Virus record (IMG/VR): IMGVR_UViG_3300028844_004840
Coordinates: 1-64,000 of that record
DNA: 64,000 nt
Direction: 5' to 3' (one strand)
Source of the DNA: a virus
Shown here: piece by piece, positions 19,567 through 29,523 of the stretch
Layout of the letters: each line of letters begins with the position of its first letter
Position numbering within the stretch: the stretch's first letter is position 1
Made by a program: the position numbers and the translations under genes
Notes under the pieces: generated by a model
What the model saw: only the letters and a program-made list of their open reading frames with translations
Told to the model about the DNA's origin: nothing
The model's database searches: none

Positions 19567-19643
19567 GGAGCCTTCGTCTAAACGGACTAGGACGCTTCCC
19601 TTTCAAGGAAAAAATGCGGGTTCAAGTCCCGTAGGCTCTTCCA
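19567..19643 (+). tRNA. tRNA-Glu(TTC)
   Basis: Acceptor GGAGCCT/AGGCTCT, anticodon loop CTTTCAA, T-arm GCGGG-TTCAAGT-CCCGT, encoded CCA. One mismatch at the base of the anticodon stem. Confidence 0.88.
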
Positions 19644-19721
19644 AATTAACAGATAATAATTCGTAGTTGTACAGACACATATTTAATGTAGATTAAACAA
19701 CTGGAAGATTTCTAATTAAAG

Positions 19722-19889
19722 GTGTTGCCATACGCCTGATACGAGATTAAAACCGAGGTACTGCCAAGAGGGCAAATTTGGGTACACCCTGACGGGTTAG
19801 AAACTCTAAATGATGCACTTGACAGAGACATGGAGCACCTGCTAGATATTGGTGCTCTAAAACGAGACGAACCGGAAGCTGCGAACTAA
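19722..19889 (+). pseudogene. Small ORF with an in-frame TGA
   Basis: From TGA (19737-19739) to TAA (19887-19889) the frame encodes a protein-like 49-aa stretch (RGQIWVHPDGLETLNDALDR and on to KRDEPEAAN). The only upstream starts, GTG 19722 and TTG 19725, lie before the TGA in the same frame. It may be a broken gene, or one that needs stop readthrough or a non-standard start. Confidence 0.45.
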
Positions 19890-19927
19890 TGTAGCAACCA
19901 CGATCTTTGATATTGCTGGTTATTCGA

Positions 19928-19971
19928 TCACGCGCCTTGGTAGAGGCCTGTTTAGGCAGAAACAGCGTGGC
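19928..19971 (+). ncRNA. Compact three-way-junction RNA element
   Basis: Nested stems with almost no unpaired bases: CACG/CGTG closing GCCT-tggtag-AGGC and CTGTTT-aggcag-AAACAG. It is not a tRNA. It is one of several folded spacers in this island. Confidence 0.45.
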
Positions 19972-20021
19972 ACATGTAGGAACGTGGTATTACGCCCATG
20001 AACCGATTATCTGTGTATTAT

Positions 20022-20098
20022 GGGGAGGTGCGCTAAGAGGAAACGCGGCGGGAATTAAGTCCTGTGTATGGAACCTTCGAAGGTTTCCCTCCCCACCA
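20022..20098 (+). tRNA. Atypical tRNA, possible Leu(TAA), 6-nt anticodon loop
   Basis: Perfect 7-bp acceptor GGGGAGG/CCTCCCC, A73 and encoded CCA. D-stem CGC/GCG, T-arm GAACC-TTCGAAG-GTTTC with one mismatch. The anticodon stem CGGGA/TCCTG closes a 6-nt loop, ATTAAG, where 7 are normal; with T33 the anticodon reads TAA. There is no long variable arm as a bacterial tRNA-Leu would have. May be degenerate. Confidence 0.55.
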
Positions 20099-20115
20099 TT
20101 TAATTAAATTAAATG

Positions 20116-20144
20116 TTGACGAACCTTATCAGGTTGGTTATACA
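20116..20144 (+). promoter_or_regulatory. Promoter of a structured RNA
   Basis: TTGACG at 20116-20121, exactly 17 nt, TATACA at 20139-20144. The expected +1 (about 20151) coincides with the 5' arm of a 24-bp helix. Confidence 0.75.
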
Positions 20145-20150
20145 TATTTC

Positions 20151-20350
20151 AAGGAAGATTTGAAGTGCAACATCGCTCTACCTGAACGGCTCCTCCAGCA
20201 CGTTCGAAGGTGATTAGTGGGTTGGCAACAATACAAATGAGCAGCGTTTCGATAAAATATTGCTCGCGATGTTGTACTTCTAATCTTTCTATGGCGAAAG
20301 CCTCCCCCGCTGAACATCTCAGGATTAAGACAAGGGGACGCTAGCCGTAG
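20151..20350 (+). ncRNA. Large structured RNA, unknown family
   Basis: The arm 20153-20176 pairs with 20266-20289 in 23 of 24 positions (two G-U, one T-T). Inside, GAACG 20184-20188 pairs with 20201-20205, and GAGCA 20239-20243 with 20261-20265, the latter abutting the long helix. A following helix CTATGGC/GCCGTAG (20289-20295 with 20344-20350) contains a GGC-GAAA-GCC hairpin. It has its own promoter, no ORF, and leads into tRNA-like elements. Large RNAs such as GOLLD and ROOL occur in phage tRNA arrays, but I cannot assign it to either. Confidence 0.65.
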
Positions 20351-20360
20351 TTAGATTTAT

Positions 20361-20434
20361 GTCCAAGTACGCTAATTGAACGCGGGCGGCTTCATCGTCG
20401 CTGTTTGTAGGTTAAACCCCTTCCTTGGACACCA
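20361..20434 (+). tRNA. Atypical tRNA, identity unclear (possible CAT)
   Basis: Perfect acceptor GTCCAAG/CTTGGAC, A73, encoded CCA, D-stem CGC/GCG, T-arm GTAGG-TTAAACC-CCTTC with one mismatch. The stem GCGGC/GTCGC closes a 6-nt loop TTCATC. Position 56 is A instead of C. It may be degenerate or specialised. Confidence 0.5.
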
Positions 20435-20467
20435 TTAAATTTATGTTCCTTTAGGAACTGTAGTTAT

Positions 20468-20575
20468 GCAGAGGTACGCGAATTAGCGGATCGACAATTG
20501 CTTCCAAATATTCGGAGATATCTGATGGAGCAAGGGTACGATTGTATGTAGGTTGAAATCCTACTCTCTGCACCA
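20468..20575 (+). tRNA. Oversized tRNA-like element, 108 nt
   Basis: Acceptor GCAGAGG/TCTCTGC with A73 and CCA, T-arm GTAGG-TTGAAAT-CCTAC (perfect stem), D-like CGC/GCG. Where a 7-nt anticodon loop should be, ACAAT/ATTGT closes a 42-nt loop with an inner stem TTGC-TCC/GGA-GCAA. This is about 35 nt more than a normal arm, as if a short insertion sits in the anticodon loop. No anticodon can be assigned. Confidence 0.45.
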
Positions 20576-20626
20576 AATAAACACCAGTTTCCATTGGTGT
20601 AAGATAACGGAGGGTCGCTACCTCCT

Positions 20627-20715
20627 AGGCGTATAGCTCAGTAGCATGTCTTGTGGGACAAAGAGCAGCCCGTTAAGGGGGTTGGTCGCGGTTGGAATGT
20701 CGAGCCGCTACGCTG
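20627..20715 (+). other. Degenerate tRNA-like element
   Basis: Acceptor-like AGGCGTA/TACGCTG, D-stem GCTC/GAGC with a 23-nt loop, an arm AGCCC-GTTAAGG-GGGTT, and GCGG/CCGC with a 13-nt loop in place of the T-arm. There is no CCA. It is either a decayed tRNA or part of a folded spacer RNA. Confidence 0.4.
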
Positions 20716-20727
20716 TTTAATTATTTT

Positions 20728-20802
20728 AGCATTGGAGCGGTAGGTGCTCAGTATCCTCTCATAAGGGATAACCGCCGAGTTCGACCCTCGGTGATGCTAC
20801 CA
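20728..20802 (+). tRNA. tRNA-Met(CAT)
   Basis: Acceptor AGCATTG/TGATGCT, D-arm GAGC/GCTC, anticodon loop CTCATAA, T-arm CCGAG-TTCGACC-CTCGG, encoded CCA. CAT could also be Ile2 after lysidine modification. Confidence 0.85.
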
Positions 20803-21012
20803 AACAACAGGCGTTGGATTACCTCCGTAAATCGCGTGAAATATAGACCGTCGAGAACGACCGTCTGTTCCTATGTACCGTTTCCATTCTAATCAGATGG
20901 AGTAGCTATGTGATAGGCCACTGCTCGTGGACTTAGAGCAAGGTTTAACCGTACCGTACGGGGTAGGGCTGCTACGGTCCTAGTGCAAGGTTGATTACCG
21001 TAGAGAAACAAT
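20803..21012 (+). other. Folded spacer between tRNA-Met and tRNA-Cys
   Basis: No gene. Contains TCCAT/ATGGA, CCAC-TGCTC-GTGG, CCGTAC/GTACGG, and a perfect CTACGGT/ACCGTAG stem with an 18-nt loop just before tRNA-Cys. Probably part of the primary transcript, possibly functional RNA. Confidence 0.4.
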
Positions 21013-21088
21013 GACACGAAGTCTGAACGGTTAGGTCCCAGATTGCAAACCTGCGGTAAGGCGGGTTCAACTCCCCCTCGTGTCTCCA
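21013..21088 (+). tRNA. tRNA-Cys(GCA)
   Basis: Acceptor GACACGA/TCGTGTC, T73 as in known tRNA-Cys, anticodon loop TTGCAAA, T-loop TTCAACT, CCA encoded. The anticodon stem has two mismatches, so it is less regular than usual. Confidence 0.8.
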
Positions 21089-21264
21089 AACAGCGGTTGA
21101 GAACAACATACACCAGTGGTGAGTTGGTATCCCTATCAAGCCGTGTGGCAAAAAGACTACACCGCCTCTGGAAAACGTGGAAACCCGGCAAGTAATAACA
21201 CAAAATGCATTGTTGCGACAGTCGGAAAAGACCGACAACAAATTTTCGGTGTGTAACACCGTTT

Positions 21265-21340
21265 CAGGGTGTAGCTCAGTAGGTAGAGTGCTTGATTTGG
21301 AATCAAGAAGCCGCTGGTTCGAGTCCAGTCACCCTGACCA
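21265..21340 (+). tRNA. tRNA-Pro(TGG)
   Basis: Acceptor CAGGGTG/CACCCTG (C1-G72 typical of Pro), anticodon loop TTTGGAA, T-arm regular, CCA encoded. Canonical cloverleaf. Confidence 0.92.
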
Positions 21341-21343
21341 ATA

Positions 21344-21400
21344 CATCCGACGCAGGCTATGCCAAGCGGGTAATAAGTTCACCGTAAGGGGACTCGGATG
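21344..21400 (+). other. tRNA-sized folded spacer closed by a 7-bp stem
   Basis: CATCCGA (21344-21350) pairs perfectly with TCGGATG (21394-21400) and encloses GGC-TAT-GCC. It has an acceptor-like stem but no T-arm, anticodon or CCA. Confidence 0.4.
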
Positions 21401-21409
21401 ACACTCTTT

Positions 21410-21487
21410 TGCGGGGGGTGGAGAAGTAGTTAACTCGCCAGCCCCATACGCTGGAGAACAGAGGTGCAAATCCTCTCCCCGCAACCA
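21410..21487 (+). tRNA. tRNA-Met(CAT) with C33
   Basis: Acceptor TGCGGGG/CCCCGCA, A73, CCA encoded. Stem CCAGC/GCTGG with loop CCCATAC, so position 33 is C rather than the near-universal T. The T-loop is TGCAAAT. It could be a variant elongator or initiator. Confidence 0.8.
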
Positions 21488-21496
21488 AATAATCCC

Positions 21497-21525
21497 TTGA
21501 CGCGTGTTAATACATAGCGTACAAG
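21497..21525 (+). promoter_or_regulatory. tmRNA promoter
   Basis: TTGACG at 21497-21502, 17 nt, TACAAG at 21520-21525, about 20 nt before the first tmRNA helix. Confidence 0.65.
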
Positions 21526-21531
21526 GGTAGT

Positions 21532-21862
21532 ACGAAACACACGTATATCTTCAAGTTTGAAGACATTTAGGACCTCGGGGCAGTACCGAGCAGGTCCACC
21601 ACATATTCACTGGTAGTGAATATTTGAGGGGCCTGAAATAGGATCGACTAGGTGGATTAGAATAAGCGGCGTGTCGGGTTGGCCTAAACGTTATCTGGGC
21701 AATTGGTCTTAGGACTGAGGAAACAACTAAATGCAGCAAATGATAATGCAGCACCTACTGAAATGGCAATCGCAGCCTAAGCCTCTGGCTTAGATGCAAC
21801 CGCCGATCAGTTCGGGGGTCCGGTGGCACCTAGCAACAGAAGCCACCAACTAATTCTGTTGA
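21532..21862 (+). ncRNA. ssrA: tmRNA, circularly permuted two-piece type
   Basis: The acceptor piece comes first: T-arm-like CTCGG/CCGAG, then CAGGTCC-A-CCA (21591-21601). A spacer with ATATTCACT/AGTGAATAT follows, then the coding piece starts with GGGCCTG (21629), which pairs with CAGGTCC. GGATCGAC follows as in tmRNA 5' ends. The tag reading frame GCA AAT GAT AAT to GCC TAA (21736-21780; a GCA also precedes) encodes ANDNAAPTEMAIAA. The stop lies in a TAAGCC-TCT-GGCTTA hairpin. Downstream an H-type pseudoknot is perfect: 21822-21827 with 21842-21847, and 21834-21841 with 21854-21861. It would tag proteins from stalled ribosomes for proteolysis. The T-loop (GGCAGTA) is unusual. Confidence 0.9.
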
Positions 21863-21870
21863 GATAATTC

Positions 21871-21900
21871 TTGACACACCACTATTATGACGCGTAGTAT
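21871..21900 (+). promoter_or_regulatory. Promoter of the methyltransferase operon
   Basis: TTGACA at 21871-21876, 18 nt, TAGTAT at 21895-21900. Confidence 0.6.
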
Positions 21901-23582: not shown

Positions 23583-24533
23583 ATGACCGAGATTATGAGA
23601 ACAATTGCAGGTTCGCGCCTATACGGAACGAACAATGCGGATTCCGACACGGACTACAAAGCGGTTCACCTTCCAAGCTCTCGTGACATTCTTCTGCGCC
23701 CAAAGCGTCAGATGGTTCGCTCCACATCGAGTGGTGGAACCGAAACGAACGGCGCGGACGACGTAGACATGGAGAGCTTCGAATTACAGCGCTACCTGAA
23801 ATTGGCGAGCGACATGCAGACCATTCCGGTGGAGCTTCTGTTCGCTCCTACGCTGTCCAAATCATGGACGTGGGACCGCATCGTTGAGAACAAGAATCGC
23901 ATCCTGAACCGAAATACAAACGCCTTCGTGGGCTACTGTAAAGGACAGGCAGTGCGCTACTCGATGCGCGGCACACGCCTCAACACCTATATGGAAGTTG
24001 TGGCTGTACTGGGCCAATATGCGGGTACAGGAGAAAAGGCACAAACCATAAAGGACGAACTTATCGCTATTGAGGGTGTCAAAGTCATCCCCAAAGAAGA
24101 AGGGGGAGGCCCCATCGATTATCTGGACGTTTACGGACGCCAAACGCCAATGACGGTGCGCATTGGTGAAGCTCTAAAGATTTACCAGAAGCCTGTCAAT
24201 GAAGCAGGTAAACGAGCCAATAACGCACAACAAGCGAATGGCGCGGATTGGAAAGCCCTTTACCACGCGGTTCGAATTGCAGAGCAAGGCGTAGCGTTGT
24301 TCAAGACAGGGGTAATCAGTTTTCCTTCACAAAACGTGCCACTGCTGATGCGTATTCGAAATGGCGAAATGGACATGAACGAGGTCCTAGATTACTTCGA
24401 TGAACAGGCAGCAGAATTGCAAATGATCGGAGCTAATTCTCCTTTACCGGAGAAACCTGATTACGAGTGGATTGACGCATTCGTATGCCAAGTACATGCG
24501 AAAATCGTAAGAAAAAGTGGGTGGGGCGCATAG
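23583..24533 (+). CDS. Nucleotidyltransferase-fold protein, 316 aa
   Basis: The N-terminus AGSRLYGTNNADSDTDYKAV has the GS...DxD signature of the pol-beta-like nucleotidyltransferase superfamily (residues about 9-28). Helical C-terminal two-thirds. It is in one operon with the two methyltransferases and directly precedes tRNA-His. Related phage proteins are of unknown substrate; the tRNA context suggests RNA, for example 3'-end addition or repair, but that is inference. Confidence 0.75.
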   Translation: MTEIMRTIAGSRLYGTNNADSDTDYKAVHLPSSRDILLRPKRQMVRSTSSGGTETNGADDVDMESFELQRYLKLASDMQTIPVELLFAPTLSKSWTWDRIVENKNRILNRNTNAFVGYCKGQAVRYSMRGTRLNTYMEVVAVLGQYAGTGEKAQTIKDELIAIEGVKVIPKEEGGGPIDYLDVYGRQTPMTVRIGEALKIYQKPVNEAGKRANNAQQANGADWKALYHAVRIAEQGVALFKTGVISFPSQNVPLLMRIRNGEMDMNEVLDYFDEQAAELQMIGANSPLPEKPDYEWIDAFVCQVHAKIVRKSGWGA

Positions 24534-29447: not shown

Positions 29448-29523
29448 GGCGATGTAGCTCAACGGTTAGAGCAGGGGCCTCTAAAACCCTTGGTTGTGGG
29501 TTCAAATCCCACCAACGCCACCA
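29448..29523 (+). tRNA. tRNA with anticodon CTA (candidate amber suppressor)
   Basis: Acceptor GGCGATG/CAACGCC (one mismatch), regular D-arm, perfect T-arm GTGGG-TTCAAAT-CCCAC, CCA encoded. The anticodon arm GGGGC-CTCTAAA-ACCCT gives CTA with T33 and A37, if the C31-A39 mismatch is accepted; otherwise the loop is 9 nt. Loop CTCTAAA is what a tRNA-Trp-type amber suppressor would have. Normal TAG stops are used elsewhere, so it is not evidence of full recoding. Confidence 0.7.

Follow-up and report, generated by a model that had tools for sequence, protein, structure and literature searches.

A complete, circularly permuted tmRNA gene in the tRNA cluster of a roseophage-related virus

Does a phage tRNA cluster in which the parts of a tmRNA stand in permuted order hold a working gene, and what could the phage gain from it? 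The locus comes from an IMG/VR virus record of 139,562 bp (IMGVR_UViG_3300028844_004840), whose first 64 kb are called the window below. That phages can encode a tmRNA is not a recent finding (PMC4131195). Of 18,146 phage genomes surveyed, 402 had a tmRNA and 53 of the 133 unique structures were of the two-piece type, 50 of these 53 from marine or aquatic phages (PMC9004378); phages account for 79 of the 97,179 unique sequences that the tmRNA database listed in 2025 (PMC11915505). A limited literature search, with most subscription papers outside it, found no paper with a functional test of a phage two-piece tmRNA.

Results

Identification of the tmRNA gene

Window positions 21493–21871 on the plus strand hold a complete circularly permuted tmRNA (ssrA) gene. 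Using the curated Rfam gathering cut-off over the full model length as the threshold for membership, we obtained full-length matches to alpha_tmRNA (RF01849; 21493–21851, 104.2 bits, E=2.2e-27, cut-off 50) and to tmRNA_permuted (RF04321; 21539–21780, 98.3 bits, E=6.7e-18, cut-off 47), both E-values for the 64 kb searched. ARAGORN called a tmRNA* at 21509–21871 with the tag AANDNAAPTEMAIAA. Two of the checks proposed in the first-pass annotation, a search with the alphaproteobacterial model and ARAGORN, thus return a permuted tmRNA, in support of its reading as a phage-encoded, circularly permuted tmRNA of the two-piece type in a tRNA array. The gene lies where it had been placed (21532–21862), but its true extent is larger, as the Rfam and ARAGORN bounds indicate.

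The permuted order was confirmed, with the T-arm, the acceptor 3′ strand and CCA upstream of the acceptor 5′ strand and the tag frame. The elements described earlier (T-arm, CAGGUCC-ACCA, hairpin spacer, pairing GGGCCUG, GGATCGAC, tag frame and pseudoknot) are present, with small corrections (Table 1). Because its score of 104 bits is far below the 257–321 bits of Rhodobacteraceae tmRNAs, we regard the window tmRNA as strongly diverged; some pairs of the Rfam model are broken in its tRNA-like domain. The bare signature of T-arm, CCA and acceptor arises by chance about 0.5 times per shuffled 64 kb. The two helices by themselves would therefore not have sufficed, and the case rests on the Rfam scores and the covariation. 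Chance resemblance is ruled out by the Rfam E-values and the covariation.

Table 1 Features of the tmRNA locus, in window coordinates.
Feature	Position	Strand	Details	Basis
tRNA cluster	19567–21487	+	Upstream; Glu, Met, Pro, Met, order as in relatives
Permuted tmRNA (ssrA) gene	21493–21871	+	Outer bounds	Rfam alpha_tmRNA (21493–21851) and ARAGORN (21509–21871)
5′ hairpin	21548–21563	+	TCTTCA-AGTT-TGAAGA; precursor/acceptor piece	Fold, alignment
T-arm	21574–21590	+	Stem CUCGG/CCGAG, loop GGCAGUA
Acceptor 3′ strand and ACCA	21591–21601	+	CAGGUCC (21591–21597), then discriminator A and genomically encoded CCA (21598–21601)
Intervening spacer	21602–21628	+	27 nt; hairpin 21603–21623	Fold
Acceptor 5′ strand	21629–21635	+	GGGCCUG; bears the G3-U70 alanine identity pair
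D-arm region of tRNA-like domain	21641–21648	+	Conserved GGATCGAC
Tag reading frame	21733–21780	+	Resume codon GCA at 21733; tag AANDNAAPTEMAIAA; stop UAA 21778–21780
3′ H-type pseudoknot	21816–21847	+	S1 GGGU/ACCU, S2 GGUGGC/GCCACC, L3 AGCAACAGAA	Covariation
RlaP/nucleotidyltransferase-family protein	23583–24533	+	Relative of the gene after the tmRNA: MAL1 43% identity, DSS3P8 39%

The acceptor strands pair at seven of seven positions, G3-U70 included, and a hairpin resembling the 5′ hairpin was found in five roseophages in the alignment. The acceptor piece is predicted to end at 21601 and RNase P to cut just before 21629; the spacer between them would be removed during processing. Its length of 27 nt compares with mostly 22–25 nt in sampled bacteria and 30–111 nt in close phage relatives.

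Covariation and the T-loop

For the covariation test, 23 phage and bacterial tmRNAs were aligned and 22 pairs from the T-stem, acceptor stem and pseudoknot were evaluated. The alignment consists of blocks excised by pairing rules. In it, 98.0% of the cells were paired, but because pairing of T-stem and acceptor had been demanded when loci were picked, it is the co-changing pairs that are informative there, not this percentage. Both sides had changed in 93 cells, compared to 25.4 in shuffles, and none of 500 shuffles reached 93. With the partner slid by one to three columns as a control, pairing went down to 42–58%.

Measured against the bacterial norm, the window carries compensated pairs in the acceptor stem (pair 4 C-G for G-C, pair 6 U-A for C-G) and in the T-stem (pair 2 U-A for C-G, pair 3 C-G for G-C). 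The 3′ pseudoknot has the bacterial topology, its S2 compensated in the window's own way. The G3-U70 pair is invariant (124 of 124 bacterial loci, nine of nine phages); in the window tmRNA it is present together with the CCA end, the other alanine identity element.

It had been considered that the T-loop GGCAGTA might be non-functional. This loop occurs in four of the 124 sampled bacterial loci and its one-base variant GGCGGTA in 114, which removes the ground for this doubt; judged by these loci, there is nothing unusual about GGCAGTA as the T-loop of an alphaproteobacterial tmRNA. In the permuted tmRNA of the roseophage RpAliso the T-loop is TTCGACT (region L023, 2568–2584), unlike the GGCGGTA or GGCAGTA of its relatives.

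The tag peptide

The start of the tag was recognisable in 109 sampled bacterial tmRNA loci, most of them alphaproteobacterial, and all 109 have A at position −4 and T at position −1. Two GCA codons come into question in the window; the first, at 21733, fits both positions and the second fits neither. The resume codon is therefore the first GCA, and the encoded tag is AANDNAAPTEMAIAA. The frame had been recognised correctly, but the tag given for it, ANDNAAPTEMAIAA, misses the first encoded Ala.

The tags of the relatives are ANTNAAPMEMAIAA (MAL1, MD18), ANINNAPMEMAIAA (DSS3P8, V10), ANENFAPMEMRLAA (RcXuper) and ANENFAPVEMAVAA (RpAliso). Tags of the phage clade have 14–15 amino acids and mostly end in EMA[I/V]AA, that of RcXuper in RLAA. 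Sampled Rhodobacteraceae tags have 12–13 amino acids, typically ANDNRAPVALAA or ANDNRAPVAVAA, and in differing from these the phage-clade tags appear mildly new. Here, the first bacterial tag sample was biased by its search pattern; a second, less biased one yielded a tag from 25 of 33 loci, the 30 loci used being the best-scoring of 61 genomes. We also searched a sample of 393 genomes from the order for a DNA pattern that encodes EMA[I/V]AA and a stop, and none had it; with some codon positions fixed in the pattern, this limit applies to the one coding form alone. The exact tag pattern had no match in genome contigs.

Phage relatives and gene neighbourhood

The closest capsid and terminase proteins come from six roseophages, DSS3P8, V10, MAL1, MD18, RpAliso and RcXuper (67–71% for the major capsid protein, 63–67% for the large terminase subunit). 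With a related terminase and capsid and a tRNA cluster that includes a permuted tmRNA, the phage belongs to the DSS3P8/MAL1-like roseophages. All six cultured relatives have a permuted tmRNA in their tRNA cluster, following a Met/Pro/Met tRNA run that is often led by tRNA-Glu. It is annotated as ssrA in MAL1, and the regions examined from the other five lack a tmRNA annotation. The rarity implied by the first-pass annotation is not borne out, given these six, one of them annotated, and the 53 two-piece phage tmRNAs reported by 2021 (PMC9004378). With a permuted tmRNA present in the same neighbourhood of at least six cultured relatives, the window tmRNA is real, probably working, and not new in kind.

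In the window, the order is Glu, Met, Pro, Met, tmRNA, two methyltransferase-family genes and the nucleotidyltransferase gene. The phage record has roughly 20 tRNAs, a CCA-adding-enzyme-family protein and a tyrosine-recombinase-family protein (98495–99085); no SmpB was detectable in it and no RtcB ligase was found. A nucleotide tree separated phage from bacterial tmRNAs with a support of 0.97; the place of the window within it has a support of 0.44, and long branches may attract. When IMG/VR was searched for further relatives, a single short contig came up by its terminase, and a pattern built on the tmRNA had no match.

Several other RNA features were noticed. In four roseophages a GOLLD RNA (Rfam RF02032) lies directly upstream of the tmRNA (regions L018, 2279–2742; L020, 2122–2589; L021, 1908–2341; L022, 1908–2341), overlapping tRNA-Arg in MAL1 and MD18; a search of the window did not detect it, with E-values up to 0.5 allowed. 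Two possible extra tRNAs lie at window positions 20361–20431 and about 21010–21087, one a weak Rfam tRNA match absent from the ARAGORN list, the other seen by eye, with a possible GCA anticodon, and reported by neither program. A tRNA with a CUA (amber) anticodon at 29448–29523 was labeled tRNA-Pyl by ARAGORN. TAG recoding, suspected from this tRNA, is unsupported, with TAG ending 15 of 59 long plus-strand ORFs. For two TAG-ended ORFs of at least 150 amino acids, read-through would continue for at least 150 codons, in one case into an apparent separate neighbouring gene and in the other through a serine-rich frame that looks non-coding.

Permuted tmRNAs without tmRNA annotation in the records examined were also seen in Caulobacter phage CcrSC (L026, 1944–2376; 21-amino-acid tag), Rhodobacter phage RcRudolph (L027, 1941–2355; overlapping an annotated hypothetical ORF) and Mesorhizobium phage Cp1R7A-A1 (L024, 2319–2728; near a tRNA splicing ligase gene).

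Discussion

A probable addition to ribosome recycling

We consider it likely, with a probability of about 0.85, that the locus encodes a functional two-piece tmRNA of the alphaproteobacterial type, carried by a DSS3P8/MAL1-like lineage of tailed phages and most likely topping up ribosome recycling. Its anatomy, the covariation and the conserved place in the phage clade are observed directly. For processing, charging, tagging and the benefit to the phage we infer a course whose biochemical steps are taken from established tmRNA biology. From a single precursor transcript, tRNA-processing enzymes of the host would release an acceptor piece that ends with the CCA at 21601 and a tag-coding piece that starts at 21629 after an RNase P cut, and the 7 bp of the acceptor helix would keep the two together. 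The RNA would be charged by host alanyl-tRNA synthetase via G3-U70 and carried by host SmpB to ribosomes that have stalled on a truncated mRNA. Translation would resume at the GCA at 21733 and append (A)AANDNAAPTEMAIAA, and the tagged product would be degraded by host proteases. Because the phage record has no SmpB, the tmRNA must rely on SmpB, AlaRS and proteases of the host; going by its gene content, the phage would contribute at most the RNA half and borrow the remainder. The simplest gain would be extra ribosome recycling during infection, in a setting of phage tRNAs, the CCA-adding-enzyme-family protein and the RNA-repair-family nucleotidyltransferase.

A phage might instead keep its tmRNA for another fate of the product, through a different protease or adaptor or through slower decay, and not for extra rescue capacity. 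The length and mostly EMA[I/V]AA ending of the clade's tags, set against the shorter tags of sampled Rhodobacteraceae, and the absence of that coding pattern from the 393 genomes of the order would suit such a purpose. However, A[I/V]AA is a conservative change from ALAA or AVAA, so that recognition by ClpXP is probably kept, the RcXuper tag ends in RLAA, and the divergence could be drift. That the clade's own tag acts as a phage-specific degradation label, giving a different proteolytic fate in infected cells, is therefore unlikely in our estimate, as is the wider idea of a tmRNA retained for such a fate.

Quite improbable is a decoy RNA that ties up host SmpB or ribosomes and so reduces host trans-translation. 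There is a reported precedent in the tmRNA of mycobacteriophage DS6A, which consists of the tRNA-like domain only (PMC4131195, PMC11915505), and a phage without its own SmpB sets its RNA in competition with that of the host for host SmpB, but the tag frame, resume context, stop codon and pseudoknot, all unnecessary for a decoy, are kept here. We give even less credence to a decaying remnant or a copy of a host ssrA attachment site acquired by integration. The tyrosine-recombinase-family protein and the low Rfam score relative to bacterial hosts could be read in this way, but the gene is complete and not a 3′ fragment, and its compensated helices, like the neighbourhood shared by seven phages, point to selection. 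No exact match to the sampled bacterial tmRNAs, among which that of the true host may not be included, exceeds the longest one of 17 nt; an attachment-site copy of the genomic island type, expected as a near-identical 3′ fragment, is disfavoured among these bacteria.

Complete phage tmRNAs under selection, permuted like those of their alphaproteobacterial hosts, have been little studied, and the window tmRNA is a divergent addition to them. Since cultured relatives on laboratory strains of Ruegeria, Phaeobacter and Rhodobacter share the place of the tmRNA, what the phage gains from it is directly testable.

Comparison with known systems

The nearest systems are those of the roseophages DSS3_MAL1 (MAL1), Phaeobacter phage MD18, DSS3P8, vB_RpoS-V10, RcXuper and RpAliso, with the same permuted order and place in the tRNA cluster and a related capsid and terminase. 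MAL1 and MD18 have a similar tag, NAAPxEMAIAA, and MAL1 and DSS3P8 a related nucleotidyltransferase gene downstream. The window differs in its sequence (about 55–59% identity to the six tmRNAs), in its 27-nt spacer (30 nt in RpAliso, about 98–111 nt in the others), in an additional GCA codon of the tag, and in a C5-methyltransferase gene and a second methyltransferase-family gene between the tmRNA and the nucleotidyltransferase gene.

With the alphaproteobacterial two-piece tmRNA (RF01849; RF04321) it shares the acceptor and T-arm architecture, T-loop, G3-U70, GGATCGAC, resume context and pseudoknot with its AACAGAA loop, whereas its tag is longer (15 versus 12–13 amino acids), its score lower than in Rhodobacteraceae, and its location a phage. 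The tmRNAs of methylophage Melnitz and the pelagimyophages (PMC9004378) are likewise phage-borne and of the alphaproteobacterial two-piece type, but there the phage is a T4-like myophage, a glutamine riboswitch is attached and the neighbourhood is another. The mycobacteriophage Bxz1 group and Bacillus phage G (PMC4131195) also encode a tmRNA, but in one piece and not permuted.
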